Source: Cytophagia bacterium CHB2
GTDB lineage: Bacteria; Zhuqueibacterota; Zhuqueibacteria; Zhuqueibacterales; Zhuqueibacteraceae
DNA: 32,244 nt
Assembly: GCA_030263535.1 (NCBI GenBank)
Contig: SZPB01000019.1
Coordinates: forward strand, 1 to 32,244
Reading direction: 5' to 3'
The notes under the pieces are model-generated. The model saw only the letters and a program-made list of their open reading frames with translations. It was not told the origin of the DNA and searched no databases. Positions 1-19,539 of this stretch are shown here, piece after piece. Positions within the stretch are counted from its first letter, which is position 1; the number at the start of each line of letters is the position of its first letter. A program made the translations under genes and the position numbers.

Positions 1-3000
1 AATAATCGTAGGATTGCCGGCGTTGGCCGCAACGATATAATCGCCGGTTTTGTCGAGCGGGCCTTGCCGGAAGTGCAAGCGCACACTGTCAACGGTAGCA
101 CCGGCGGAATTGCTAATGCCGAGATTGTTGGCAATGCGCACCGTCACTGCGAGATTTGTCTGGCCGCGCGACACGGTATCACGCACTGCCGTCACCGATT
201 GTACTGTCAAATTCGCCGGCCGCTGCACGGTCCATGTATCTTTATTGCCGGCATTGTTGGCGCTCACCGGCGTGCCGCTGATGTCGCCCGCAATCGTGCC
301 GTTCAGCGTAATCAATTCGAGCGCCGCACCGGGATTGACCGAAACAGTGAAAGACAAGGTCGCAGACGTATTGCCTAAAATTTGGTTCGGATTGCCCGCG
401 CCCGCAGTCACGCTGTAATCAGACGTACGATCGACCGTGCCTAGAAAAGTCAAATTCCCGATGATATTCTGAATCGTGGCGGTGCCCAAATTCTGCACGG
501 CCATACTGACGTTAATGCCGCTCTGGCCTTGCGTGACAAACTGCGGATTGGTCGAAATACTCGTAATGCTCAAGCTGCCGAGCGTTATCTGCTGGCTGCC
601 ATTCGCGCTCAAGCCGGCAGAGACGTTGACCGTCGCCTGGCCGCCCAGCGTGCCCGCGCGAAACGTGAATTGCAAACGGCTGGTAGCATTGGTAGTGATT
701 TGATGGCCGGCGGTTTCGCTGTCGGCATCCGGCTCGACGATGGAGCCAAACGCAGTGGGCGAAATCGAAACGGTAAAAAATTTGCCGGAGCCGACATCGT
801 TGCCATCGCCGTCTTTTATGATCGAACTGGTGAATACCGAGGTGGCAACGCCGTCAGCCGGCAGGTTAGACGGAACCGGCGTCAAACTGATGCTCCCTTT
901 CGGCACGCCCGGAAAAACGGTGATCAAACCGGTTTCATCGAAAATGCCCGGGCCGTACGTTCCAACCAATCTGCCATTAACCGAGCCGTCAGCAGCAGCG
1001 GCAGTCGGCGAAAAGGTGAAGGATGAGCCGGTGCCGCTGGCCGGCGGCGCCAGCGAGCCGGTACGCGACCAGGTTACCGAAACATCGCCCAAATAGTTGT
1101 TGCCAACGTCATAACCAGCGGCATAAACCGTAATCTGCTGATCGGCAGTCATGGTTTGGCCCGGATATTCCTGGCCACCATTGTTGGGAGCAGTGCGTAA
1201 AACGATGCGCGACACTTGACCGAGATTGACGCGAATCGCGCCGCTGTTGGCGCTGCCGATGGCGGCATTGGGATGAACCGCACGAATCGAGCCGGTGCCT
1301 TCGGTTTGCGCGGTGAACGTCGTGGAGGTGCCGCTGTTTGAGTTCAAATTTCCAATGGGGCCGTCCACGTTCCAGGTCACGGCTTCATCCGCGATGTAGT
1401 TGTTGTCGCCGTCAAAACCGCCGGCATGCACTTGCAAAGTCTGTCCGGGATTCAACGTGACGTCACCCTGCGGCGAGGTTTCGCCAACCAAACCGCTGAG
1501 CACGGCAATGCGCTTGAGCGCGCCCACATTCACGGTGATCGTGCCGGTGGTATCAAATCCGACCGCATGCGTGGCGCGAATCGTGCCATTGATTGAGCCA
1601 TTCGTTGCGCCCCGGGTTGGCTGAAAAACGATTGCCTTGCCGGTGGCAGAAACCGCCGGCGCCAGCGTGCCTGCGCTCGACCACGTCACAACTTGATCGT
1701 CGATGTAATTATTGTCGGCATCATAACCCGCCGCATGCAGGGGCAATTCGCCGTCAGCCGTAATCGTCCGAGATCCAAACTCAACGCCCGAACCGGAGGG
1801 GCCTTCCACCACTTTGACATAATTCAACGCGCCCGGAGTGACGGTGATCGTGCCCGTCAAATCTGTGCCAATCGCATGCGTCGCGCGAATTTGGCCTGCG
1901 CCGACTTTTGTTGCATTCAAGGTAGTTGTCACGCCGGTCGTGGGCGCCAACACGCCGATGGCGTTGGTCACTGTCCATGTCACTGAAACATCGCCGCGGT
2001 AATTGTCATCCGCATCAAATCCGCCCGCTTTTACCGTCAGGCTTTCGTCTGTGGTGAGTGAATCGTCTTCCACCACCGGCGTATTGCCGGTTCCGGCAGC
2101 AAGAACTTTGATGTGATGCAAGACGCCTTCGGTAACCGTAAGCACGCCAGTGGAATCATCCGCGACCGAAGCATGATCCGCGAAAACTTTGCCCTGGCCC
2201 GGACGCCGCAAGGTTAATGTCGTGGAGGTGCCGGTCGAGTTACTAAACGTGCCGAGATTGTTGCTGACGCTCCAATTCACAATCTCATCTTGCAGATAAT
2301 TGCCGTTGATGTCATAACCGGCGGCATGCACATCCAGCGTGCCGTCGGTGGTGAGACTAAGATCGCCGAGGGGCTGGCCATTGCCGCTCAAGCCGCGCAC
2401 AATGTGAATGCGCGCCAAGCTGCCGGACTGCACGGTAATCGTGCCGGTGGAAGCCGCTCCCAATGTGCCATGTGTGCCGGTAATGACGCCCGAGCCGGGT
2501 GTCACCGCGGTCAGCGTCGTGGTCGGGCCGACCGAGGTGCTCAAGGTGCCGATGCCGCCACTCACCGTCCAGCTCACGCTCACATCGTCGATATAGTTAT
2601 TGTCATTATCGAAACGGCTGGCATGCACGGGCAACGTTGCGCCGGTAGAAACAGTTTGTGGCAAAACTTCTAGAGTGTTGCCCGAAAAATTGCTCAAAAT
2701 TTTGATGCGCTGTGGCGTGCCCTGGATTACGGAAATCACGCCAGTGCTGTCATTCGGCACTAAGGGATCAGGGTGATCTGCAACGATACGTCCGCTGCCC
2801 GGCGTGCGCGGATCAAAATCCGTCGAGGTGCCCACCGTGGGCGTTACCACGCCGATGCCGTTGCGCACCAGCCAGGTCACCGATTCATCGCCGAGATAGA
2901 CGCCCTGCGCGTCATAACCCGCAGCATGCACTTTCAGCGACCCGTCCGTGGTCAAATTCCGGTTGCCGACGGGATTGCCCGGCCCGTTTGGCCCTTCAAC

Positions 3001-6000
3001 AATCCGAATAAACGCGAGATTGCCGGCATTCACCGTGATTGTACCGGTGGAATAATCGATCAAGCTTGCATGATCTGCGGTGATCTGGCCGTTGCCAGCA
3101 TTGTTCGCCGTGAAGCGCGTCGATATGCCGGAGGCCGGATTCAAACTGCCGATGCCGCCGGTCACCGTCCATGTCACAGATACATCGTCAATATAGTTGT
3201 CATCAACATCGAAACGGGCTGCGTGCATGTCAAACGTGCCGCCCGTCGTCAAATTCAGCGTCGTCACCGGACTGGTTTCACCCGAGAGGCCTGCCAGGAT
3301 TTTTACGCGATAAGGCGCGCCATCCGTGATCGTGATCACGCCCGAGCTGTCATCAATCGCGCTGGCGTGATCGGCCACGATGCGGCCCGTGCCGGTTTTT
3401 TGTGCTGTGAACGTGGTCGCGTTGGCGCTCACCGGTGAAACCACGCCAATGCCGCTGGGCTGCACCGACCAGGTAACAGTTTGATCCGCGATATAATTAT
3501 TGTTCACATCATAGCCAGCAGCGCGCACCGGTAGAGTCTGATCGGCATTCAGCGTTCTGGCAAACAACTCTGTCCCATTAATTTCCACCACGCGCACACG
3601 GTGCAACGGCCCGGGCGTCACGTTGAAGGTGTTGGACACACCGGTTTTGCCGCCACCGCTGACGTTGAGAGTCAAATTGTTTTGCGCTTTAAGGAGCACG
3701 GCATTCGGCACTGTCACTGTCGTGCCGTTCATCGGCACGGACACGGGCGAGAGCGTGCCGGTCGCTTCCGAAAGCGTGAGCGTGCCATTGAAGCTGACAT
3801 CGTTACCGCTGCCGTCTCTGGCGGTGATGGTAAAACTGAACGGCGCGCCGGCGGCCTGTGTGCCGATCTCCGAGAATACAAAACGATCCAACCCGGAGGC
3901 ATTGACGTTGAATTGATTCGAGGTGCCTAGATGCCCGGCGCCGTCATTAACCGTGATTTGTTTGCTGTTTCCCGCTTGCGGAATGGTTACGACTTGCGTG
4001 CGCGTGCCGGCGCTGAAAGCGCTGCTGGTGGTCGGGGTTATCGTGCCGGTGTTAACGGCAATGCTTACCGTACCTGTGAAGCTCGTCACCGGATTGTCGA
4101 ACGCGTCCTGCGCCGTGAGAATGAGAGGGAAACTCTGCCCGGCCACTTGATCCGAAAGCGGGGCAATCGCGAATTTGGTCAACGCCGCGTGGCTCACGTT
4201 GAACGCATTCGAACTGCTTGATTTTCCCAAGCCCGTGACGGTGAGAACATCATTCACTGCGCTTTTGGTGATCGTGAAATTCTGCACCAACTGCCCGGCG
4301 CTAAAGGGATTACTCGTTACCGGTGTAATCGAGCCGGTTATGTCCGACACCGTCACCGTGCCGTTGAAACCGGTTACGATGTTGTTGCTGGCGTCTCTTG
4401 CGATAATCGTGACGGGAAAGGCGGTGCCGGCAGTTTGATTACCGATGGTGCTGATTTCGAAACGATCAATGGTCGTTGCCGTCACATTGAAGTTATTCGA
4501 TGCGCCGGTTCGTGCCGGCACGCCGCCGCTTACCTCGATGCGGTTGGCCGTGCGTGCCTGCGTTATGGTCACGCTCTCACTGCGCGCGCCGCTAACAAAG
4601 GCGCCGCTGCTCGTGGGCGTAATCGTTCCAGTTAAGTCCGAGATCGACACCGTGCCTGCAAAACTCGTAACAGGATTTTCATTGGCGTCCATCGCACGCA
4701 ACGTGATGGTAAACGGCGCGCTGGTGGCTTGATCAGTTATTGGGTCGATCGTGAAGTGATCAAGGGCCGCCGGATTCACATTAAAAAGACTCGACATACC
4801 GTTGACCGGAGGGACTCCGCCGCTAACCGTCAATTGATTGTCCGTGCGCGCCTTCAATATCGTGATACTTTGTGAGGTCAATACGCCTGCACTGAAGGCG
4901 CCGCTAGTGATATTGATTGGCGGCGAACTCAAATCGGTGATCGTGACGGCTTGCACAAAACCGGTCATGGTATTATTGAATTGATCCTGCGCCGTGATAC
5001 GGATATTGAACGGCGTGCCCGCTGTCTGAGAGCCGATGGGATTGCCGCTGGTATTGGTGATGCTGAAGTGATGCAACAAATCCGGATTAACCGTGAAGGC
5101 ATTTGACTGCACCGCCTTGCCGCTGCCGCTCGCCGTGATCACCACGCCTGCCTGCGCCTTGGTGATGCGTGCATTCGTGATGGTCTGCGCCGTTTGATTT
5201 GCGAACACCAAACTCGAAGCGGTCAGCGTACCGGTATTATCCGTCAGTGTCACCGTGCCGTTGTGCAAAACATCATTATTATTGACATCTTTCGCTCGCA
5301 CGGTCACACTGAAATTTTGTCCGGCGGTTTGCGGTGAGGTGATGGGGGGGTCGATCACAAAATGATCGAGCACACCGGCATTCACCGTGAAGGGGTTGGA
5401 ATCTTGATTGAAGCCGCTGCCTGAAACCGTTATGACCCGGCTTGCGCCGGCATTCGAAATGCTGACGCTGCCGTTCCACACGCCGTTGATGAAATTGCCG
5501 CTCGCATTCGGCGAAATGCCGCCGCCGGTCACGCTAATGCTCACCGTGCCGGTGAAGCCGGTCACCGTGTTTTCATTCGCATCAACCGCAGTGACGATCA
5601 GCGGAAACGCCACCCCCGCGATTTGCGGTGATGAAATATTCGCAATGCGAAAATCCGCCAATGCGCCGGCATTCACCGCAAAATTATTCGAGCTACCGTT
5701 GCGCGCGGGCGAGCCGCCGCTCACCGAAATCGCGTCTGCGCTGGAGGTTTTAGTGATGTTAACCGTGAGTGAAGCCAGCTCGCCGTTGGTGAAATTACCG
5801 CTGCTGGTCGGCGTTATGCTCGCGGTTGTATTGGAAAGTGTTACGCTGCTATTGAAGTTGGTGACGAGGTTGGCGAACGCATCGCGCGCAATAATTTTAA
5901 TCGCAAAGTTCGTCCCGGCAACCTGACTGCCGATATTGCCGCCGGCAGCGCTGATCACCTCGAAACGCTCGAGCGCCGCATGCGTGACATTAAAACTGTT

Positions 6001-8271
6001 CGACTGCGCCGGCTTGGCGCTGCCGCTGGCATTGATCACCACATTGCTCTGCGCTTTTGTGATGTTTGCCGTGCTGATCGTCACAAAAGCTTGATTCGTG
6101 AAAGTCACACTATCAGGCTCAAGCGTGCCAGTATTGTCGGTCAATGTTACCGGCCCGGTGAATAACACATCATTATTATTCGCGTCTTTTGCGCGAATCG
6201 TCAGGCTAAAATTCTGCCCGGCAGTTTGATTGGGGATCGTATCAATCACAAAACGATCAATGCCGCTCGCCGTCACTTCAAAGGCATTCGAAACATCGCT
6301 GCGCACGCCATCGGAAACCGTAATCTGGCGGCTCACGCCGACATTCGAAACACTCACGCTGCCGTTCCACACGCCCGCCACAAAATTACCGCTGGTCGCG
6401 GGAGAGATGCTGCCGCCGCCGCTTACGGAAATATCCACCGTGCCGGTGAAACTGGTGGCAATGTTCTCATTCGCATCAACCGCCGTGACGATCAGCGGAA
6501 ACGCGACTCCGGCAGTCTGCGGACTGCCCACCGGCGCAATGCGGAAGTCCGCCAAATCCCCGGCATTCACCGCAAAATTATTCGAGACGCCGTTTGTGCC
6601 GCTGGCAGTATGCGTTGCCGTAATGGCATCCGCGCTGGCAGTTTTCGTGATCGTTACGCTTTGTGAGGCGAGGATACCCCCGGAAAAATTGCCGCTGCTC
6701 GTCGGGCCAATGCTGGCGGTTGTGTTGGACAACGTTACCGCGCTGCCCGCGCCGGAATGCGAAACAACAATATTGTTGTATTGATCCTGCGCAACAATTT
6801 TAATCGCGAATGCCGTTCCCGCGGTTTGACTGCCAATATTCAAGTCAGAAGTGTTGGTGACGTCAAAGCGATCAAGCGCAGCATGATTGACGGTAAAGCT
6901 GTTGGATTGCCCGGTTTTCAAGGCGCCGCTCGCGGTGATCACCACGCCGGCTTGCGCTTTGGTAATCACAGCATTGACGGTTTGCGAGGTTTGCCCGGAG
7001 AACACAACGCTGGTGGGGCTTAACGTGCCGGTATTGTCTGTCAACGTCACCGTGCCGGTGTGGGGAATGGCATTGCCGCTGGCATCTCTTGCGGTGACGG
7101 AAAACAAAAACGTATTGCCGGCAGTCTGCGAGACGGGAATCAGCGAAAATTCAAAACGATCGAGCGCGCCGGCATTCACATTAAACAAATTCGATTGGCC
7201 GGTTCTGCCGCCGCCGGTAACCGTGATGCGATTGTTCGCCGCGGGTTGCATGATGCGCAGCGTTTCGGTGCGCACGCCGAGACTAAAGGGGCCGCTATTG
7301 GAGGTTGGCGTCACGGTTCCGGTAAGATCGGAAATCGTGACCGGCCCGGCGAATGTTGGAATGGTGTTATTCAGGGAATCTTGCGCCGTGATCGTCACTG
7401 CAAATCCGGCGCCCGCAATTTGCGGGGTTGAAATGTTTGAAATGGCAAAATGGTGCAACGCCCCGGGATTCACGGTGAACGCATTCGAGCTGCCCACGTG
7501 ATTCAAGTTGTCGCGCACGGTAATGATGCGCCCGAAGCCTGCTTTCGCAATGACAACTTTCTGTGTCCGTTGCCCCAGCAAAAACGTGTCGCTCAATGCC
7601 GGTTTGATCGAATCCGCGTTTAGGCTCAGTGTGACGCGCTGCTTAAAACTTTTAACCAGATTCTCATAAATGTCGCGCGCAGAAATATTGATATTGAAGG
7701 AATCGCCCGCGGTTTGCGTGGCCACGCTGTCAATGGTGAAATGATGCAGCGGCGCTGGAGTAATCACGCAATATGCCGAACGCGCTGTGTCGATTTGCAC
7801 GCCCCCGGCATTCAACGTTTCCACAAAAATCCGGAAGCTGTCCGCCAGTGTCGAATTATAGACGAGGGCGAGGCTAAACACTGCCGTGTCGCCGGGCGCC
7901 AGCGCCGCGCCGGTGCCGTCGCGCGTGAGTGTGACCGCGTGATTCGTGTCCGCAATCACGGAATAGCCCCCGGTCAGGCCGCTGTCGTTGAAGGCTGCGG
8001 TGATGGTCGAATCCACAAAACTCGGCGGAAACGTCAGGCGAATTTTGCCGTTCGCCGGAATACCAATGCCGCCGGCGCCGCCAGTCAAGCTCGTAATGAA
8101 GCTGATCCGGTAAAGCGCGCCCTTGCCGGCGGTGGTGTCCGAGGGCGTCACTCTGACCTGGGTTAGACTTCCTTGTCCAAAGGCAGGCGCCACGGCGAGC
8201 ATCAGCGCCAAACTCAGCGCATGCCACGTTTTCGTCTTTGCCTGCTGCGCGTCAACATTCATGACTTGCAT
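1..8271 (-). CDS. Giant secreted Ig-like repeat protein (5' part, runs off the left edge)
   Basis: This frame is open for 2757 codons from ATG 8271 to base 1 with no stop, so the protein is larger than what is seen. The chosen start has a GGTGAG Shine-Dalgarno 7 bases upstream; an ATG at 8262 is also possible but poorly spaced. A hydrophobic signal peptide ends near AFGQG (about residue 34). Residues 35-173 form an N-terminal domain that resembles the whole protein encoded at 8401-8889. Residues 174-1553 are 14 Ig-like units of about 99 aa with signature QTAG..F...I.A.D...N and SN.F.VN. Residues 1554-2456 are 9 units of about 100 aa with GYD/FD...NNY and VTW motifs. An invasin-type domain (LPADG) and CARDB-like domains follow. 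The role is inferred to be a surface or extracellular adhesin or scaffold. Anchoring cannot be judged because the C-terminus is outside the window. Confidence 0.93.
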   Translation of the reverse strand, partial: MQVMNVDAQQAKTKTWHALSLALMLAVAPAFGQGSLTQVRVTPSDTTAGKGALYRISFITSLTGGAGGIGIPANGKIRLTFPPSFVDSTITAAFNDSGLTGGYSVIADTNHAVTLTRDGTGAALAPGDTAVFSLALVYNSTLADSFRIFVETLNAGGVQIDTARSAYCVITPAPLHHFTIDSVATQTAGDSFNINISARDIYENLVKSFKQRVTLSLNADSIKPALSDTFLLGQRTQKVVIAKAGFGRIITVRDNLNHVGSSNAFTVNPGALHHFAISNISTPQIAGAGFAVTITAQDSLNNTIPTFAGPVTISDLTGTVTPTSNSGPFSLGVRTETLRIMQPAANNRITVTGGGRTGQSNLFNVNAGALDRFEFSLIPVSQTAGNTFLFSVTARDASGNAIPHTGTVTLTDNTGTLSPTSVVFSGQTSQTVNAVITKAQAGVVITASGALKTGQSNSFTVNHAALDRFDVTNTSDLNIGSQTAGTAFAIKIVAQDQYNNIVVSHSGAGSAVTLSNTTASIGPTSSGNFSGGILASQSVTITKTASADAITATHTASGTNGVSNNFAVNAGDLADFRIAPVGSPQTAGVAFPLIVTAVDANENIATSFTGTVDISVSGGGSISPATSGNFVAGVWNGSVSVSNVGVSRQITVSDGVRSDVSNAFEVTASGIDRFVIDTIPNQTAGQNFSLTIRAKDANNNDVLFTGPVTLTDNTGTLEPDSVTFTNQAFVTISTANITKAQSNVVINASGSAKPAQSNSFNVTHAALERFEVISAAGGNIGSQVAGTNFAIKIIARDAFANLVTNFNSSVTLSNTTASITPTSSGNFTNGELASLTVNITKTSSADAISVSGGSPARNGSSNNFAVNAGALADFRIANISSPQIAGVAFPLIVTAVDANENTVTGFTGTVSISVTGGGISPNASGNFINGVWNGSVSISNAGASRVITVSGSGFNQDSNPFTVNAGVLDHFVIDPPITSPQTAGQNFSVTVRAKDVNNNDVLHNGTVTLTDNTGTLTASSLVFANQTAQTITNARITKAQAGVVITASGSGKAVQSNAFTVNPDLLHHFSITNTSGNPIGSQTAGTPFNIRITAQDQFNNTMTGFVQAVTITDLSSPPINITSGAFSAGVLTSQSITILKARTDNQLTVSGGVPPVNGMSSLFNVNPAALDHFTIDPITDQATSAPFTITLRAMDANENPVTSFAGTVSISDLTGTITPTSSGAFVSGARSESVTITQARTANRIEVSGGVPARTGASNNFNVTATTIDRFEISTIGNQTAGTAFPVTIIARDASNNIVTGFNGTVTVSDITGSITPVTSNPFSAGQLVQNFTITKSAVNDVLTVTGLGKSSSSNAFNVSHAALTKFAIAPLSDQVAGQSFPLILTAQDAFDNPVTSFTGTVSIAVNTGTITPTTSSAFSAGTRTQVVTIPQAGNSKQITVNDGAGHLGTSNQFNVNASGLDRFVFSEIGTQAAGAPFSFTITARDGSGNDVSFNGTLTLSEATGTLSPVSVPMNGTTVTVPNAVLLKAQNNLTLNVSGGGKTGVSNTFNVTPGPLHRVRVVEINGTELFARTLNADQTLPVRAAGYDVNNNYIADQTVTWSVQPSGIGVVSPVSANATTFTAQKTGTGRIVADHASAIDDSSGVITITDGAPYRVKILAGLSGETSPVTTLNLTTGGTFDMHAARFDVDDNYIDDVSVTWTVTGGIGSLNPASGISTRFTANNAGNGQITADHASLIDYSTGTITVNAGNLAFIRIVEGPNGPGNPVGNRNLTTDGSLKVHAAGYDAQGVYLGDESVTWLVRNGIGVVTPTVGTSTDFDPRTPGSGRIVADHPDPLVPNDSTGVISVIQGTPQRIKILSNFSGNTLEVLPQTVSTGATLPVHASRFDNDNNYIDDVSVSWTVSGGIGTLSTSVGPTTTLTAVTPGSGVITGTHGTLGAASTGTITVQSGSLARIHIVRGLSGNGQPLGDLSLTTDGTLDVHAAGYDINGNYLQDEIVNWSVSNNLGTFSNSTGTSTTLTLRRPGQGKVFADHASVADDSTGVLTVTEGVLHHIKVLAAGTGNTPVVEDDSLTTDESLTVKAGGFDADDNYRGDVSVTWTVTNAIGVLAPTTGVTTTLNATKVGAGQIRATHAIGTDLTGTITVTPGALNYVKVVEGPSGSGVEFGSRTITADGELPLHAAGYDADNNYIDDQVVTWSSAGTLAPAVSATGKAIVFQPTRGATNGSINGTIRATHAVGFDTTGTITVNVGALKRIAVLSGLVGETSPQGDVTLNPGQTLQVHAGGFDGDNNYIADEAVTWNVDGPIGNLNSNSGTSTTFTAQTEGTGSIRAVHPNAAIGSANSGAIRVNLGQVSRIVLRTAPNNGGQEYPGQTMTADQQITVYAAGYDVGNNYLGDVSVTWSRTGSLAPPASGTGSSFTFSPTAAAADGSVNGRLVGTYGPGIFDETGLITVFPGVPKGSISLTPVPSNLPADGVATSVFTSSIIKDGDGNDVGSGKFFTVSISPTAFGSIVEPDADSETAGHQITTNATSRLQFTFRAGTLGGQATVNVSAGLSANGSQQITLGSLSITSISTNPQFVTQGQSGINVSMAVQNLGTATIQNIIGNLTFLGTVDRTSDYSVTAGAGNPNQILGNTSATLSFTVSVNPGAALELITLNGTIAGDISGTPVSANNAGNKDTWTVQRPANLTVQSVTAVRDTVSRGQTNLAVTVRIANNLGISNSAGATVDSVRLHFRQGPLDKTGDYIVAANAGNPTII
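905..3612 (-). repeat. Array of 9 second-type coding repeats, ~301 bp each
   Basis: Nine tandem units of about 100 codons follow the first array in the same reading frame. Each has HAAGYD or HAxxFD, then an Asp/Asn-rich NNY.(D/A)D turn, VTW, a TGxxT.F region, ADH or ATH, and TG.ITV before the next unit. The Asp/Asn-rich turn could bind calcium, but that is inferred from composition only. They differ clearly from the 14 units upstream and probably form a different Ig-like subfamily. Confidence 0.8.
3613..7752 (-). repeat. Array of 14 Ig-like coding repeats, ~296 bp each
   Basis: Inside the giant gene, 14 tandem units of about 96-105 codons each begin with a [LI]xxF.I motif, carry QTAG..F and an A.D...N turn, and end in SN.F.VN. 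Units start near 7752, 7460, 7172, 6885, 6562, 6272, 5982, 5672, 5382, 5087, 4776, 4482, 4194 and 3904. They are bacterial Ig-like folds by pattern. Units 3-10 show a higher-order three-unit order, described in the findings. Confidence 0.85.
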
Positions 8272-8400
8272 TACCGATCTCACCAAGATTAGAACGTTCA
8301 GATAACCGCCCGGGCGCTGCACTCGCCGGGCAGGCGCGCTTGCCGGTTTGAGGCCAGCCGCATACCCATCGAGCAAAATGCTCGAACGGTGAACCGAAGA
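8272..8400 (-). other. Structured leader between small secreted protein and giant protein
   Basis: This 129-base gap separates two co-directional genes. It holds a 7-bp perfect hairpin, TCGAGCA/TGCTCGA with loop AAA (8369-8385), and a second GC-rich imperfect hairpin, CCGGGCA/TGCCGG (8326-8346). The Shine-Dalgarno of the giant gene lies at its left end. I could not match it to a known riboswitch. The hairpins could stabilise or attenuate the downstream mRNA. Confidence 0.45.
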
Positions 8401-8889
8401 TTAGAATTCAATGCGATAATTTTTTTTGGCCACTTGCACGGTTTGCGCCGCGGAACGGATTTCAATGGCGACTTCGACATTGCTGCCGGGCTGCGCGGGA
8501 TTCTTGATCAACCCGAGCTGCAACGCGACGTTTTTTCCGGGTGGCACGGCCTCGCCGAGTCCGGTGCGTTGCACGCGCACGACATTCCGGTCGCGCGTCA
8601 ACTTGAACCCGCCGTTAATGCTGGTCGAGCTGGCCAGGCGCAGCAAACTCAAATCAAGGCCGGAGGGAAATTCCAGCACGATTTCAGCGCGGGAATCAAG
8701 TGAATCCTTTGTGGTGAACGAGATTTCATACAGCGAAACCTCGCCTGGCTGCTTGGCGAGGGCGCGCACGTTGATCGGCGTGGCCTCGGCGAGCGTGGTG
8801 CTGCGTTGGGTGTTTTGGCTCGATGCCGGGGCAAACGCACCAGCCAGAAACACAACCATTGCGAAGGAAATGACGCGAGGATGATTCAT
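8401..8889 (-). CDS. Small secreted protein, stand-alone copy of the giant protein's N-terminal domain
   Basis: 162 aa. ATG 8889 is chosen because GGAGAGGAG lies just upstream and a clear signal peptide follows (MNHPRVISF, hydrophobic core, cleavage near ASSQ). The mature part is beta-rich. It aligns by eye with residues 45-165 of the giant protein: VSLYEISF with ALYRISF, LEFPSGLD with LTFPPSF, GGFKLTRDRN with GGYSVIADTN, and GLGEAVPPGKNVALQL with GTGAALAPGDTAVFSL. The gene lies 129 bp upstream of the giant gene in the same direction, so co-transcription is likely. No catalytic motif is seen. It may be a partner, chaperone or capping subunit of the giant fibre, which is inference. No database family is recognised. 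Confidence 0.85.
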   Translation of the reverse strand: MNHPRVISFAMVVFLAGAFAPASSQNTQRSTTLAEATPINVRALAKQPGEVSLYEISFTTKDSLDSRAEIVLEFPSGLDLSLLRLASSTSINGGFKLTRDRNVVRVQRTGLGEAVPPGKNVALQLGLIKNPAQPGSNVEVAIEIRSAAQTVQVAKKNYRIEF

Positions 8890-9461: not shown

Positions 9462-10586
9462 TCATTTAAACAACGCGCGCAGCAGAATCAAAAAGCCCTT
9501 GCCGTCGTTCTCGGTGAGTTTGAGATTTTTTTCCGCGCGCTTGAATTTGGGATTGATGCGCAGCGCTTCGCGGAATTCCTCCAGCGCGCGCAAAAACAAA
9601 TTGCGGCATTGAATCAAATAGGCAATGCCGAGATGATTGTGCAAATCGGCGTAATCGGGATAATCCGAAATCGCCTCGCGCAAATTGTCGGTATAGCGCT
9701 GCACGAACGCGTCGTCGCGGCCCTTGCCGCCGTACATGAATTTCAAATAAAACTCGTTCTCGGAGTTGGTCAGCACCTCGGCCTGCATTTCGTCGCGCAT
9801 CGCCTGCAACTCCGCCAGCGCGCGGCTGAATTCGTTCTTGGTGAGATGCTCGGCGCATTTGAAAATGTGCGAGGTGTCTTTCGAAGGCGGCAACGCATGC
9901 GTCAGCTTGCCGAGCTGCTCTTGAATGCGCTTGACTTGCGCGGGCAGAGGCTGGGATTGCGGCGCTTTCACGACGATGCTGGTCAACAGCGTGAGCGCCA
10001 GATGCAGATGCGCCCGCAGAAATTTGGGATTGATCTGCAGTGCGGTCTCGCACGCCTGAATCGCCTCGAAAAATTTTTCCTGTTCGAGATAGGCCGCGCT
10101 GAGCTGGCAATAGGTGTCCGCATATTTGGGCGCGCGCGCCAGACCGGCGCGCAGCACCTCTTCACTTTTGGTATAATCACCGCGGCGCAGGTAGGCATTG
10201 CCCAAATGATTGTAGGCATCGGGCGAATCCATGTTCAGCGTCAGCGCCAATTCCAGCGCGGCAATCGCGTCGTCGAGCAGATTTTTTTCGAGAAAAAGCT
10301 GGCCGAGCTTGAGGCAGGAAAGCGGATGTTTCACCTCCCGCACTTTTTCCGAGATATGAAACAACAACTCCATCTCCGCCACCATGTCCTGGTGCACGGC
10401 GTGCAGTTTTTTGGAAAGCTGCGCATCTTCCGCGTCGCCGCTTACCGGCACGTCGCGCTGCGCAACGATGCGCCCATGATCGAAGATATGCGAAATGATT
10501 TTGCCGTTGCTGGCGGAATGGCTGGTCTGGACGTGAAAGCGGTGGCCGCCGGCTTGCACGTCACTATTCAATCCGAGGTGTGGCAT
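9462..10586 (-). CDS. Tetratricopeptide repeat protein
   Basis: 374 aa, ATG 10586, with only a weak purine-rich GAGA upstream. There is no signal peptide or membrane segment, so it is probably cytoplasmic. Residues 1-60 form a small beta-rich domain (GHRFHVQTSH, KIISHIFDHGRIV). Residues 60-90 are helical. Canonical TPR units follow at about 90-190, with DAYNHLGNAYLRRGDY as the clearest, and again at about 315-360 (DLHNHLGIAYLIQCRN, ALRINPKFKRAEKNL). The middle, about residues 190-310, is helical and less repetitive. TPR arrays mediate protein-protein binding; the partner is unknown. It lies 68 bp downstream of the FmdB-type gene in the same direction. Confidence 0.85.
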   Translation of the reverse strand: MPHLGLNSDVQAGGHRFHVQTSHSASNGKIISHIFDHGRIVAQRDVPVSGDAEDAQLSKKLHAVHQDMVAEMELLFHISEKVREVKHPLSCLKLGQLFLEKNLLDDAIAALELALTLNMDSPDAYNHLGNAYLRRGDYTKSEEVLRAGLARAPKYADTYCQLSAAYLEQEKFFEAIQACETALQINPKFLRAHLHLALTLLTSIVVKAPQSQPLPAQVKRIQEQLGKLTHALPPSKDTSHIFKCAEHLTKNEFSRALAELQAMRDEMQAEVLTNSENEFYLKFMYGGKGRDDAFVQRYTDNLREAISDYPDYADLHNHLGIAYLIQCRNLFLRALEEFREALRINPKFKRAEKNLKLTENDGKGFLILLRALFK

Positions 10587-12299: not shown

Positions 12300-13808
12300 T
12301 TATTTTACAAAAACCGCCTTGCGTATCCGAGAAAATTTTCCTGCGGTGATTTTGTAGAAATATAGCCCGCCGGCCAAATCGCACGGCGCGAACGTCACAG
12401 TATGATTTCCCGCCGGCATTTCTCCATCCATCAGCGTCGCCACTTCGCGGCCATTCACATCAAACACCTTCAGCGTCACACGACTGTTCACGGGCAATTG
12501 AAAACTGATCACGGTGCTGGGGTTGAAGGGATTGGGATAATTCTGCGCCAATGCAAAACCTGCGGGGCGTTCCGCGGGCTTTTCTGTAACTGCGGTCGCG
12601 GCGGCAATTTGCTTTTGCAGAAATGCGCCGGCTGGAGAAAGCTGTTTTTGCAGCATCCGCTGAAAACCGGCTTGCTGGCCGCTGCGCAATTTTTGGGAAA
12701 AAGACATGTTCCCATGAATGGCGGGATTGTAGGTCAGATAACCGTACAACAGCGTTGGCCAGAAAAACGAGGTGACTCTGACTCTCGAAAAGTGGGAAAG
12801 ATTCACCAGCGCTTTGATGAATAGCGTATCGATTGGAACCCAGTAATCGAACATGTCGCGCGAATAGATCTCTGCGCTCGTCGCCACCGGATTGGTGATA
12901 TTGGTCATCTCACCATTGGTGGCTTTGTAGCACCACGCCTCGCCGATGACCAGCTCTTTGTTGTGCGCTTTGGCGAGAGAATCAATTCTAAAAACCACGT
13001 CATCGAAGTAGCTGAAATGCGGCGGATAAATGTGATAATCAATAAAATCGATGCCGGTTTGCGCCAGCTTTTCGAAATAAACAAAATCATCCCACGTGCC
13101 CGCGCCGGCGCCAATCTGTGTGTTCTTTTTATTCACATGCCGCAGAAAATACTCGGTATAAGCCGCCATGCTGTCCGCCTGAAAATCCACCAACTGCAAC
13201 AGATTGATCGTCATGGCTTGCGGCTCCATCTCGACTGTGAGATAGTCGGGCGCCAGCCGGTCGATGATGGTTTGCAGCATTTGCATCTTTTCTGTTTTGT
13301 AGCGTGTACTGTTCAAACCAATATAAAAATTCTTCACATCATTGGTCAAATTCGGCTCACCGAAAACCGAATCGACAAATGTAGCCTGGCAACCGAGCAA
13401 AATCGTGAAGTGCCGCGCTCGCGCCAATTGCACGACATTTTCATAGAACTGAATGTATTTATCGCGATTGGGAAAACCCTCTACGAACATCGGATATTGA
13501 ATGGTGAGGCCGATCGCGCGTAAGCCGACCATTTCGAATGCCGACAGCATGCTGTCAATCGCGGCCAGCAATTGCGACTGCGTCGCGGGATTGATCAATT
13601 CATATCCGCGATTGCTGTTGGCGAGCGACAAATCTTCGCTAAAGGCGGTGCCGTGTTTTTGCCCGTCCCACCTGCTCAAAATTTGGGCGTTGATGCTCTG
13701 CAGTTTGGGCTGCAGTTGATTGAACGCGGTTTGCCAGGTCGCCGGCGCTTGGGCAAAAGCCGCTTGCGCCAGAATGAATGCGAAAAGAAGCGAAGTAAAT
13801 TTTCTCAT
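12300..13808 (-). CDS. Secreted TIM-barrel-like (glycoside hydrolase-like) protein with type IX-style sorting domain
   Basis: 502 aa. ATG 13808 is chosen for its AGGA seven bases upstream and the immediate signal peptide MRKFTSLLFAFILAQAAFAQ. An in-frame ATG two codons earlier is too close to the Shine-Dalgarno. The middle (about 80-370) has alternating strand/helix segments typical of a (beta/alpha)8 barrel. Acidic strand ends, TVEMEP (Glu193/195) and VIGEAW (Glu290), are placed like the acid/base and nucleophile of clan GH-A hydrolases. The function is inferred and the substrate unknown. The C-terminal 80 residues (NYPNPFNPS, then VFDVNGREVATL, GLYFYKI) are the FlgD-like/Por sorting domain used by type IX secretion in FCB bacteria. 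It is therefore probably exported to the surface or released. Confidence 0.82.
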   Translation of the reverse strand: MRKFTSLLFAFILAQAAFAQAPATWQTAFNQLQPKLQSINAQILSRWDGQKHGTAFSEDLSLANSNRGYELINPATQSQLLAAIDSMLSAFEMVGLRAIGLTIQYPMFVEGFPNRDKYIQFYENVVQLARARHFTILLGCQATFVDSVFGEPNLTNDVKNFYIGLNSTRYKTEKMQMLQTIIDRLAPDYLTVEMEPQAMTINLLQLVDFQADSMAAYTEYFLRHVNKKNTQIGAGAGTWDDFVYFEKLAQTGIDFIDYHIYPPHFSYFDDVVFRIDSLAKAHNKELVIGEAWCYKATNGEMTNITNPVATSAEIYSRDMFDYWVPIDTLFIKALVNLSHFSRVRVTSFFWPTLLYGYLTYNPAIHGNMSFSQKLRSGQQAGFQRMLQKQLSPAGAFLQKQIAAATAVTEKPAERPAGFALAQNYPNPFNPSTVISFQLPVNSRVTLKVFDVNGREVATLMDGEMPAGNHTVTFAPCDLAGGLYFYKITAGKFSRIRKAVFVK

Positions 13809-13825
13809 GATCATTTCCTGTTTGA

Positions 13826-13867
13826 TGATCGGTGAAAATCCGTATTCCTCCGTGGCCAAAGAAAAAA
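13826..13867. repeat. Fragment of the dispersed AATCCGTG repeat
   Basis: The string GTGAAAATCCGTATTCCTCC followed by GTGGCCAAAGAAAAA matches the right half of the repeats at 29588-29711 and 31299-31410. Only one arm is present. It lies just upstream of the start of the sorting-domain protein gene, in its 5' region. Confidence 0.7.
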
Positions 13868-14054
13868 CGCCCGGCAGTGAATCGGATATAACAATCCCCT
13901 TGCCAGTTTTAGTAAGATTAAACAATGGCGTTAACTGGCAATTATTTCTACGCTGGGATATGTGATGACAAACAGGAGAGAGAAACGTTCTGTACGGATT
14001 GGGACAAATCGGCTGGCCGAACAAAGCCACTCACATCAAACGATTCCTGCGTGG

Positions 14055-15447: not shown

Positions 15448-16437
15448 TCATCGCATTTCTCCGGCCATGATCGAACAAATGCACGCGACATTGACAATAT
15501 CCTTCACCGAGCAGCCGCGGGAAAGATCATTTGCGGGCTTCGCCAAGCCCTGTAAAATCGGGCCAATGGCGTCGTAACCCGCCAAACGCTGCACGAGCTT
15601 GTAAGCAATATTGCCGGCATCGAGATCGGGGAAGATTAAAACGTTTGCCTCACCCTTAATCGTGCCTGCCGGCGCTTTGCGTTGCGCAATCTCTGGTACG
15701 AGAGCGGCATCGGCTTGCAGCTCGCCATCAATTCTCAAATCCGGGCGCAGGCGCTGCGCGATTTGAGTTGCGGCCCGGACTTTCTCAACGCGGGCGTGTT
15801 GGGCGCTGCCGTTGGTTGAAAACGACAGCAGGGCAACTGCGGGCGCTTCGCCGGTCAGCTTTTGGTGCGTGGTCGCTGCCGTTACTGCAATCTCCGCGAG
15901 TTGTTGCGGCGAGGGATCAGGCACCACAGCGCAATCCGCAAACGTCAAGACTTTGCCGCTTTGCGGAGACACCATCGCGAACGTGCTCGACACCAGTGAA
16001 ATGCCCGGCGCGATGCCGAGGAATTGCAGCGCCGCGCGCAAAACTTCCGAAGTCGAATAAACCGAACCTGCCACCGAACCCTCGGCCTTGCCGGCTTTGA
16101 CATAGGCCGCAGCAAAATAAACCGGCTCGTGTAATTTGGCAAGGGCTTGTTCGAAGGTGAGGCCTTTGTGCTGAAATTCCGCATGATGCTGCGCGGCCCA
16201 GACATGAATTTCAGGATATTGGCGCGGCGCGACGATTTCAAGGTTTTGCCAGGAAACGCCGCTTTGTTGCGCCGCCGCGGCAATCTTATCCGCTTCGCCG
16301 ATCAGAACGGGATGCGCCAATTGCTGTTCGGATAAATATGCTGCCGCACGCAAGACTCGCGGCTCGGTCGCTTCCGGAAAAGCGAGGCGCCGGGGACGTT
16401 GCCGCGCACGCGCCTGAAGAGTTTCCAAAAAATTCAT
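15448..16437 (-). CDS. pta: Phosphate acetyltransferase
   Basis: 329 aa, the length of the short, single-domain Pta class; the N-terminal DRTGG regulatory region of long forms is absent. The start is MNFLETLQARARQRP. Family blocks are seen: RRLAFPEATEPRVLRAA (16-32), AGSVYSTSEVLRAALQ, SSTFAM, DCAVVPDPSPQQLAEIA, LSFSTNGSA, GELQADAALVPEIAQRK, ANVLIFPDLDAGNIAYKL and GPILQGLAKPANDLSRG. It interconverts acetyl-CoA and acetyl phosphate. The start overlaps the coaD stop by four bases (ATGA), so translation is probably coupled. No acetate kinase gene is adjacent in this window. Confidence 0.95.
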   Translation of the reverse strand: MNFLETLQARARQRPRRLAFPEATEPRVLRAAAYLSEQQLAHPVLIGEADKIAAAAQQSGVSWQNLEIVAPRQYPEIHVWAAQHHAEFQHKGLTFEQALAKLHEPVYFAAAYVKAGKAEGSVAGSVYSTSEVLRAALQFLGIAPGISLVSSTFAMVSPQSGKVLTFADCAVVPDPSPQQLAEIAVTAATTHQKLTGEAPAVALLSFSTNGSAQHARVEKVRAATQIAQRLRPDLRIDGELQADAALVPEIAQRKAPAGTIKGEANVLIFPDLDAGNIAYKLVQRLAGYDAIGPILQGLAKPANDLSRGCSVKDIVNVACICSIMAGEMR

Positions 16438-16916
16438 GCTTGCGCCAGCTTTTGCCGGATGCGTTCATTCACCGCCGCCGGCACAAAACAAGTCACATCG
16501 CCGCCGAAGCGGGCGACTTCCTTGACGATGGTGGAATTCAAATACGTGTATTTCTCGTTCGCCGTCAAAAATACCGTGTCCATGCCGTGTGAAATTTTGC
16601 GGTTGATCAGCGCCATTTGCGATTCATACTCAAAGTCGGAAATCGCGCGCAGGCCGCGAATGAGCACGCTCGCGCCCCGGCCTGCGGCATATTCCACCAA
16701 CAAACCGGAAAAGCTTTCAACGCGCACGTTGGAAAAATGCCGCGTCGCCTCCCGGAACATCTCGAGCCGTTCCGCCACACTGAACATCGGATTTTTAGCG
16801 GAATTCGTGGTCACTGCAACGACAACCTGATCGAACAACATGGCCGCACGCTCGACAATGTCAAGGTGGCCGTTGGTCACTGGATCGAATGTTCCGGGAT
16901 AGATCGCCAGTTTCAT
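16434..16916 (-). CDS. coaD: Pantetheine-phosphate adenylyltransferase
   Basis: 160 aa, full length. The N-terminus MKLAIYPGTFDPVTNGHLDI contains the nucleotidyltransferase (T/H)xGH motif at residues 14-17. LIRGLRAISDFEYE and the late STIVKEVARFGGDV block are the conserved PPAT signatures. It catalyses the penultimate step of coenzyme A synthesis: ATP plus 4'-phosphopantetheine gives dephospho-CoA. It starts two bases after the rsmD stop and overlaps pta by four bases. An rsmD-coaD pair is very common in bacteria, which supports both calls. Confidence 0.97.
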   Translation of the reverse strand: MKLAIYPGTFDPVTNGHLDIVERAAMLFDQVVVAVTTNSAKNPMFSVAERLEMFREATRHFSNVRVESFSGLLVEYAAGRGASVLIRGLRAISDFEYESQMALINRKISHGMDTVFLTANEKYTYLNSTIVKEVARFGGDVTCFVPAAVNERIRQKLAQA

Positions 16917-16918
16917 CG

Positions 16919-17470
16919 TTATTCTCGCCGGTAGAATAGCAGTTTGGTTTCACCAATGCGTCGCTCCGACAGGAATTGCAGTCCTGGAGGTGGAGCCGGC
17001 AGATTAATGCGGGAAGAAGTTTCCAGCACGAGCAGACCGGCCGGTGTAAGAATAGGATTCGCGGTGATCAATTGCAAGAGTCGATCGTAGCCGCTGAAAT
17101 CATACGGTGGGTCAGCCAGAATCAAATCATAAGGCGGGCGCTCGTCCGCCCGGCGCGCCAAAAAAAGAAACGCATCATCGACCATCACGCGCGCGTGATC
17201 TTCGAGATGCGTTTTGTGCAAATTGGTTTGAATAAGACGGGCGTGCTGCCGGTTCTTTTCAAGAAAGTCGACCCACGCCGCGCCGCGGCTCAATGCTTCG
17301 ATTCCCAACCCGCCGGCGCCGGCAAATACATCCAACACGCGCGCACCGGCCATGCCCCGGCCCAAAACATCGAACAGAACGGTGCGAACACGACTGCTGG
17401 TGGGGCGAACCTGCCGGCTGGCCGGCGTCAGCAGGAGATGCCCCTTCCGCGTGCCGGCGATCACTCGCAT
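16919..17470 (-). CDS. rsmD: 16S rRNA (guanine966-N2)-methyltransferase
   Basis: 183 aa. MRVIAGTRKG and RPTSSRVRTVLFDVL match the RsmD N-terminus. VLDVFAGAGGLGIEALSRGA (about 45-64) is the SAM-binding motif I, and ADPPY (119-123) is the catalytic motif IV of N2-guanine methyltransferases. It should methylate G966 of 16S rRNA in the small subunit. It starts four bases after the PilN-like gene stop and has no strong Shine-Dalgarno, which suggests translational coupling. Confidence 0.95.
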   Translation of the reverse strand: MRVIAGTRKGHLLLTPASRQVRPTSSRVRTVLFDVLGRGMAGARVLDVFAGAGGLGIEALSRGAAWVDFLEKNRQHARLIQTNLHKTHLEDHARVMVDDAFLFLARRADERPPYDLILADPPYDFSGYDRLLQLITANPILTPAGLLVLETSSRINLPAPPPGLQFLSERRIGETKLLFYRRE

Positions 17471-17474
17471 GCGC

Positions 17475-18533
17475 TTACAGCATCTCGACCAGGTTGAAAT
17501 TCATCACCAAATCCAAATTCTCATCGCTGAACGTTTTGTGATCGCTCGGACACAGGATGATTTTGGTGATGGAGACATTCGGGTTGGCATTCATGAATTC
17601 TTGCATGAAGGCCTGCACCCCGGCGTTCGAGCCGGCAACATGAATTTGCATGGGAACGCCCGCGCCGCTCGCTTGCCCGGCGCGCTGGTTCTTGATGCTC
17701 AAACCCTGCTGCTGCGCCAAATCGCGGAGCCAGGTGGAAAACTGCTCGCTGCCCAGACGGTTGAGCGTGCCTTGAAAGCCCGCCAATCCAGCGCGCGCAT
17801 CCATAGCCCCGGCCACCAGAACCTTGCGCATGGCGCCGCCGGTGCTCGGTTGCTCGGATTCTGATACGGTTTTCAGATCGCTGGGCGAAACATTCGCTTG
17901 CATGGCGCTGGTCAAACTGCTGGTCACGTCGGAAGAGGGTGAGAGGAACTCGACCAGGAAGCGGTTATTGCTATCGCCGTGATAGGTAATCAGCGTAAAT
18001 TGATTGGGAGCGGCGAACGAACGCACCAATGACATCACGGCCCACATGCCCGTGCGGGTGGAAGCGATCACCTCCTGCTCGCGCGGCGACAACTGCGCGA
18101 GCGCCTCTTCACCGGAGGGTGCCGGCGGCACGCTCATTTCAGCGGCAGAATCGATGCCGGTGGCCTCGCCCATGGCCAGCGGATCTTCTTCCGGCAGGGT
18201 CTGCATGGGCGGGATTTGTTGGGTTTTGTTGCCGCCGCGCGGAATCATAAAAAAGACTGCCGTCAACGCAGCGAGAATCAAGCCCAGAACGATCAGATAA
18301 GCTTTGGTGCGTGAAGAGGAACCTTCGCCGTAATTTTCCGGAGATTTTCGAGAAAAGGACGAGCCGACGGTGTCACGCTGAAAACTCGCGCCTACGGTTT
18401 CGCGGCCAAAGGAGCTTGTGCCGCTCTCGGTCGCCCGCGTGGGCTCCTCGAGATTCACCGTTTTCGCATAATTTTCCTCGCGCTGGCGATCCTCGCTATT
18501 GTCGTCGTCTCCTAATAGATTAATGTCGACCAT
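17475..18533 (-). CDS. PilN-like bitopic membrane protein with long cytoplasmic linker
   Basis: 352 aa, ATG 18533 with GGAGG six bases upstream. The N-terminus MVDINLLG carries the INLL(P) peptide that in PilN docks into PilM of type IV pili. Residues 10-75 are polar and low complexity, with a short internal repeat (SSFGRETVGA, SFQRDTVGS, SFSRK). One membrane helix lies at 78-97. The rest is a periplasmic region with a Pro/Glu-rich linker (102-140), a mixed alpha/beta domain and a C-terminal ferredoxin-like-looking segment (PMQIHVAGSN, MQEFMNANP, ending in NFNLVEML). It is probably an inner-membrane platform component of a type IV pilus, type II-like secretion or DNA-uptake machine with the PilM-like protein upstream. 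No PilO, PilP or PilQ gene follows; rsmD comes next. Confidence 0.7.
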   Translation of the reverse strand: MVDINLLGDDDNSEDRQREENYAKTVNLEEPTRATESGTSSFGRETVGASFQRDTVGSSFSRKSPENYGEGSSSRTKAYLIVLGLILAALTAVFFMIPRGGNKTQQIPPMQTLPEEDPLAMGEATGIDSAAEMSVPPAPSGEEALAQLSPREQEVIASTRTGMWAVMSLVRSFAAPNQFTLITYHGDSNNRFLVEFLSPSSDVTSSLTSAMQANVSPSDLKTVSESEQPSTGGAMRKVLVAGAMDARAGLAGFQGTLNRLGSEQFSTWLRDLAQQQGLSIKNQRAGQASGAGVPMQIHVAGSNAGVQAFMQEFMNANPNVSITKIILCPSDHKTFSDENLDLVMNFNLVEML

Positions 18534-18573
18534 TACCGGCCTCCACTCGATGATAAATGTGATGAGGTATGAT

Positions 18574-19539
18574 TTACAATTTTTTCAAAGCGGCGCCAAC
18601 CGACGTCATAAACGTTTCCGGATTATCCTGCCAGGCAGAAGCTCCGGCCAAATTCGCCGTTTTCAGCCGTAGAAAGGGGTTGGCACGCTCGATGGGGAGA
18701 TGATGGCCGTTTTGCAGCGTCTCCACCATGCGCGCCGTGACATGATCGCCGTAAATATAAATGGCGCTCATGTCTTCCACATCCTTGCCGATTTTATTGT
18801 CCAGAATCAGGCGGCGCAACTCTTTGAAGATGACGCGCGCCAGATAATCATGATCCATGTGCGCCGCATCGTTTTGATCTTCCAACGAATAGTCAATGTC
18901 TTGCGCCACCAGGAACTTGTCATTTTTGAGCAGCGAAATCTGCAAATTCTCTTTGCGCACATCGACCAGGACGATGAAGCCGTTCTCCGGCGCTTGGTAA
19001 TTCTCTTGCACCACGCGCTGCGCGGCAAATACGTCGACGTCAACCGCGCGCAAGCGCAAATCGGTGTTGTGAAAAATGTCCTTCACAAAATTGATTACGG
19101 TTTTCCGTACGATCGCGACGACGACTTCGGCATTTTCCTGCTCGCGGCCCGGCTCATAATATTCATAGGCAACGCTGTAATCGGCCACGGGATTGATCAC
19201 GCATTGCTCGACCTCCCAATCGACATGATCTTTCAGGCGTGCGCCTTTCAAACTCACGTCCACCGGAATTTTTTTGATCGCCACCAGGCTTGAATCCAGC
19301 GAGATGACGGCGTGCCGCGCTTGAAAGTCGGAGACTTCATACAACCGATTGATGTCTTCCGCGAACTTGTTTATCAGCGATGCGTCTTTAAAAGACGAAA
19401 AATGCAAAGGCACACGCGCCCGCCCTTGAGCCAACCGGGTCACTTTGATTTCACGATTGGCGCGCGAAACTTCCGTGAGACGCAGCGCCGTATCACGGAT
19501 ACTGACACCCACAATCCCTTGCGTTGAAGCGTCCGTCAT
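18574..19539 (-). CDS. PilM-like actin-fold ATPase
   Basis: 321 aa, ATG 19539 with GGAT upstream, no signal peptide. The N-terminal GIVGVSIRDTALRLTEVSR is the actin/PilM phosphate-1 strand-turn-strand, more diverged than the usual DIGSSSVK form. KKIPVDVSLKGARLKDHVDWEVEQ (93-116) matches the PilM/FtsA region that precedes the second subdomain. FIVLVDVRKENLQISLL is the phosphate-2-like turn, and the C-terminal MTSVGAALKKL is typical of PilM. It is predicted to be cytoplasmic, binding the INLL peptide of the PilN-like protein encoded 40 bp downstream. Loss of the canonical Asp in the first phosphate loop could reduce ATP hydrolysis, which is inference. Confidence 0.75.
   Translation of the reverse strand: MTDASTQGIVGVSIRDTALRLTEVSRANREIKVTRLAQGRARVPLHFSSFKDASLINKFAEDINRLYEVSDFQARHAVISLDSSLVAIKKIPVDVSLKGARLKDHVDWEVEQCVINPVADYSVAYEYYEPGREQENAEVVVAIVRKTVINFVKDIFHNTDLRLRAVDVDVFAAQRVVQENYQAPENGFIVLVDVRKENLQISLLKNDKFLVAQDIDYSLEDQNDAAHMDHDYLARVIFKELRRLILDNKIGKDVEDMSAIYIYGDHVTARMVETLQNGHHLPIERANPFLRLKTANLAGASAWQDNPETFMTSVGAALKKL

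Follow-up and report, generated by a model that had tools for sequence, protein, structure and literature searches.

Genes at the locus

The window, that is, the whole stretch of DNA that was analysed, is 32,244 bases long and constitutes one entire contig (C19). A small gene lies on its minus strand at 8401..8889, with an ATG at 8889 and a TAA at 8401-8403, and the purine-rich sequence GGAGAGGAG upstream of the ATG forms its ribosome-binding site. The encoded protein of 162 aa begins with a hydrophobic signal segment (signal peptide at approximately residues 1-24) without a lipobox. It terminates at the end of its single Ig-like domain and lacks the C-terminal sorting domain of type IX cargo. 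The open reading frame, the signal segment and the shared strand bear out the original prediction of a real secreted gene that is co-directional with the giant gene next to it. The Pfam and NCBIfam searches returned no family for the small protein. Within the genus, the dN/dS of the small gene is 0.23-0.32, indicating purifying selection, and that of the homologous N-terminal domain of the giant is 0.08-0.12.

The giant Ig-repeat gene (1..8271, minus strand) has its first good start, and likely its true one, at the ATG at 8271, 129 bases past the stop of the small gene, with GGTGAG ahead of it. The intergenic stretch (8272..8400, minus strand) contains a GC-rich fold. We considered an attenuator between the two genes and rejected it, as the fold was not significant against shuffled sequences (z -1.65) and no terminator-like site was present within 8272..8400. 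An Rfam search gave no match.

From the ATG at 8271, the giant frame runs for about 2757 residues and exits at contig position 1. Since the window is the entire contig, the giant gene is truncated by the contig end. The giants of two relatives (L037 and L039) are about 4830 aa long, and the C-terminal part was assigned by homology with them. In the same genome, contig C368 (L135) carries a 1616-codon open end with a giant-type, type IX-like tail, after which a PorV-family gene begins. Contig C93 carries the end of that gene, an RsbW/PP2C gene and a STAS gene. From the gene order in relatives, we infer that C368 and C93 continue C19, and the missing 1616 C-terminal codons of the window giant are probably those on C368. 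No Pfam or NCBIfam family was found for the repeats of the giant.

Homology of the small protein and the giant N-terminal domain

By BLASTP, the small protein aligned with the N-terminal domain of the giant (7747..8181, minus strand) with an E of 4e-8 and 27% identity over 150 columns. Comparing a profile of 33 small proteins with one of 31 giant N-terminal domains gave a probability of 99.8% and an E of 1.3e-27 over 113 columns. The matched residues of the giant, counted from the ATG at 8271, are approximately 45-153, which agrees with the alignment to residues 45-165 proposed earlier. The domain is single and N-terminal in every giant scanned and was never found among the repeats. Among the conserved positions common to both groups are Y, F-P, G-G and R-x-G-x-G. 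Directly after the R of the last motif, the small proteins have S or T and the giants have D.

AlphaFold2 models built from two-sequence alignments (pLDDT 72 and 68, a modest confidence) placed the identical nine strands in identical order in both domains, so that the structural similarity presumed by the original prediction is found at the level of one common nine-strand sandwich. In the PDB, no convincing relative was found by sequence. By fold, the two models have common top matches (EbpB basal pilin, collagen adhesin type); with a TM of about 0.5 and an rmsd of 5-6 A, these suggest a common Ig-like class only.

Members of both groups matched DUF2808 (PF10989), a secreted domain of unknown function, weakly (8/33 small proteins, best 4.5e-6; 3/31 giant N-terminal domains, best 0.0027). 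The small protein of the window scored 12.5 bits against a gathering threshold of 25.3. We know of no operon of such a type for DUF2808.

The operon and its type IX secretion context

In about 30 loci, the gene order is a TPR protein, the small protein, the giant, a PorV-family barrel with TPRs, an RsbW/PP2C protein and a STAS protein. The conserved first gene lies in the window at 9462..10586 (minus strand) and encodes a TPR-repeat protein of 374 aa without a signal peptide. The operon barrel exceeded the cut-off of NF033709 (PorV/PorQ family), with 125.8 and 108.2 bits against 90, and the STAS protein exceeded that of TIGR00377. SprA was found in 82/82 genomes and the sortase PorU in the window genome. 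The giant tails of the three relatives tested (L055, L057 and L041) exceeded the TIGR04183 cut-off. The tail in the window's own genome scored 19.3, below the cut-off of 23, and 127 bits with a model built from relatives. We therefore predict that the giant is type IX secretion cargo, a classification that reaches the window giant through the sorting domains of its relatives and the reconstructed contig order.

The RsbW/PP2C protein had SiaA-like NCBIfam matches and two membrane segments around approximately 150 residues predicted to be periplasmic. With an RsbW-like ATPase, a PP2C phosphatase and a STAS antagonist all present, the downstream genes are predicted to form a partner-switching module. 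Transposase-like (IS481/IS3) helix-turn-helix regions were seen in the RsbW/PP2C protein (L057:13693-17427 and L136:6044-10657) and in some STAS proteins, among them that of L057 (L057:17606-18310). Such regions suggest that the partner switch may act on DNA directly and not via a sigma factor; the loci showed no sigma factor gene.

Several other features were recorded. A further predicted type IX cargo of 576 aa, above the TIGR04183 cut-off, is encoded in the window at 12300-14030 (minus strand), and in the window genome (G000) the tail part of the type IX sortase model was matched about 50 times, suggesting that the genome encodes many type IX cargo proteins. The minus-strand region 15448-19539 of the window holds a phosphate acetyl/butyryltransferase gene (15448-16437), a PilM-like gene (18574-19539) and further unnamed genes. 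In L057, too, a transferase of similar size lies upstream of the operon.

Conservation and origin of the gene pair

We searched 82 genomes of the uncultured phylum Zhuqueibacterota (formerly KSB1). The domain was present in 73 of them, and 51 of the 82 contained adjacent same-strand pairs of a small gene and a giant gene, 56 pairs altogether, the two domain matches being separated by a median of 165 bases. The gene pair is thus conserved, and the number of pairs, together with a second pair in the window genome (L005:9507-14802, contig C140), places the arrangement far beyond chance. The counterparts of the C140 pair in L038 and L040 have no TPR, PP2C or STAS gene adjoining. Across the 82 genomes, no small gene was found away from any giant except at contig ends and in two genomes: in G031, the giant N-terminal domain beside the small gene is diverged yet present (44 bits), and in G081, the giant locus beside the small gene is broken.

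Giants without a small gene occur in the outer families, in three members of the class (L120, L121 and L067) and as extra copies (L042, L044, L128 and L130), indicating that the small gene is dispensable in some lineages. Nine operons lack it, losses inside the class among them, and orphan giants with a homologous N-terminal domain exist. No diverged small gene was found between the TPR gene and the giant in these operons. Absence of the small gene beside homologous giants had been named as an observation that would speak against a two-part system, and the result is divided: the pair is kept in 51 genomes, yet in some operons the giant and its neighbours persist and the small gene is absent.

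In the tree, the small copies form one side of a branch with a support of 100/98 and the giant N-terminal domains form the other, and this split was recovered in all 200 bootstrap trees. Another tree agreed except for a single fragment, which comes from a broken giant in G048. A single old duplication gave rise to both clades. The losses inside the class would be later than this duplication; the outer families either lost the small gene or never had it.

Giants were shorter in operons without the small gene (median 2311 vs 3192, p 0.0009). We set this comparison aside, as it mostly reflects a few related outer families and the within-family contrasts disagree. In another assembly of the same species (J3; L035 and L139), an internal stretch is missing from the small gene and the giant N-terminal domain is split over two frames, in flanking DNA that is 97-99% identical to the window; this is either an assembly error or local decay. 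In the five-contig assembly of G048 (L068), the operon genes are broken into several frames, probably by indel errors.

Co-evolution of the operon proteins

A partial mirror-tree test was applied to 25 loci, in which each protein pair was regressed on the other four operon proteins (15 tests). The pairing of the C-terminal domain with PorV had a partial r of 0.49 (p 0.001); PorV is known to contact cargo tails (PMC10202324), which makes this pairing the positive control. The TPR protein and PorV gave 0.55 (p 0.001). The small protein and the giant N-terminal domain were mutual best partners, with a modest partial r of 0.33 and a permutation p of 0.013 that would fail a Bonferroni correction over the 15 tests. 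The weight of the r of 0.33 is limited by the fact that homologous domains could share rate changes for reasons besides contact. The partial correlation of the small protein with the PP2C protein was -0.01.

Discussion

We propose that the small protein accompanies the giant N-terminal domain in the periplasm, as an old duplicate kept adjacent that would pair with it during type IX export, and we give this reading a probability of roughly 0.45. Type IX cargo enters the periplasm via Sec, and its selection depends on a C-terminal domain that all substrates carry (PMC10202324). The giant, whose length in the phylum is about 2000-5100 aa, would enter the periplasm N-terminus first, and its C-terminal type IX signal would appear only once translation ends, leaving the N-terminal domain exposed meanwhile. 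The small protein, having no sorting signal, would remain periplasmic and pair with that domain as a homologous heterodimer. The pairing would hold or protect the N-terminal domain until the PorV-like barrel and SprA export the chain, and the RsbW/PP2C and STAS proteins would set the amount of the system that is made.

Given that all type IX substrates have the C-terminal domain, the termination of the small protein at the end of its own domain supports a periplasmic stay. The second locus in the genus, where the pair is retained and the other operon genes are absent, also counts for the partner reading. The nine operons without the small gene and the orphan giants with the N-terminal domain count against it. 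The faster evolution of the small gene would fit a loosely constrained partner, and we counted it against the reading as well.

The small protein may instead act independently of the giant by binding a glycan, metal or surface target common to the giant N-terminal domain, either in the periplasm or after release. The weak DUF2808 matches in both groups and the weak resemblance in fold to cohesin, collagen adhesin and carbohydrate-binding sandwiches are consistent with such a role. If the binder were independent, some genomes should carry it alone, yet no small gene stood apart from a giant in the genomes searched; we hold this explanation to be unlikely, while keeping it in view. A slightly less probable role is that of an export-state reporter: freed as the giant N-terminal domain leaves the periplasm, the small protein would bind the periplasmic domain of the RsbW/PP2C protein and report how much of the giant awaits export, and the STAS protein would relay the signal. 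The predicted periplasmic stretch between the two membrane segments could offer a binding site for such a reporter, the RsbW/PP2C gene lies three genes downstream in the shared operon, and SiaA-type PP2C proteins with STAS partners, to which the NCBIfam matches point, control biofilm formation in Pseudomonas (PMC7647112). However, the small protein and the PP2C protein did not co-vary, two operons without the small gene (L119 and L121) keep a PP2C protein with both membrane segments, and the second pair in the genus stands without adjoining PP2C and STAS genes. We consider it rather improbable that pairing and signalling are combined into self-regulating export, in which the small protein pairs with the giant N-terminal domain and its free form signals via RsbW/PP2C to a STAS protein whose tail resembles a DNA-binding region, coupling production of the giant to its export.

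The original prediction regarded the small protein as a cap or donor-strand partner of a surface fibre. Adjacent homologous domains do occur in fimbrial systems, and pilins, self-complemented ones included, are among the fold matches. However, strand exchange or domain swapping was not supported: the sandwiches are complete in both models and leave no strand free, many small proteins, after the inferred signal cleavage, begin at the first strand or no more than a few residues from it, with no conserved donor extension, the small protein has no export tail, and no chaperone-usher genes were seen in the loci. This makes a cap or donor-strand role very unlikely. A partial duplication could also have left the small gene behind as a remnant that now has no role. 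Its loss in several lineages would suit this, but purifying selection and its retention beside the giant in 51 genomes render it hardly credible.

Compared with known systems, the locus resembles those type IX systems in which the cargo has its own PorV/PorP-type barrel (SprB-SprF in Flavobacterium, and PorV with type A cargo) in having a giant repeat protein with a type IX tail, an adjoining PorV/PorQ-family barrel, and SprA and PorU in the genome. The differences are that the tail here is type A instead of type B and the barrel is fused to TPRs; what the operon adds to the known cargo-barrel systems is a single-domain homolog of the cargo N-terminal domain and a partner-switching module. SiaABC-type and RsbUVW switching likewise have an RsbW-like kinase domain, a membrane PP2C phosphatase with a HAMP-like linker and a STAS protein. 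Here, in contrast, kinase and phosphatase are fused, with transposase-like helix-turn-helix and TPR regions, and sit behind a secreted giant, in loci without a visible sigma factor gene. Chaperone-usher donor-strand fimbriae also have adjacent secreted Ig-like domains; the present domains have no missing strand, donor extension, usher or chaperone, and their export would be by type IX secretion.

In the literature we found no description of this operon, nor any report joining type IX secretion with KSB1; as the coverage was incomplete, the novelty is provisional. Papers on the phylum (PMC11683472, PMC9012183) mention no such system, and the phylum has been reported in biofilms (PMC11683472). 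The one paper found to include both type IX secretion and partner switching is on colony spreading in Flavobacterium. The idea of an undescribed two-part surface system is thus upheld in part: the two-gene arrangement is phylum-wide and we found no description of it, but the larger unit had been missed, namely an operon for type IX secretion that encodes a PorV-like barrel and a partner-switching module.

The conserved arrangement points to an undescribed helper of giant-protein export. If the partner reading is true, a tail-less partner of the first domain would be a testable answer to how type IX cargo of 2000-5000 residues is handled when its export signal is translated last. The operon also ties partner switching to type IX cargo, and for Zhuqueibacterota, which has no cultured model organism, it provides a marker of surface biology.
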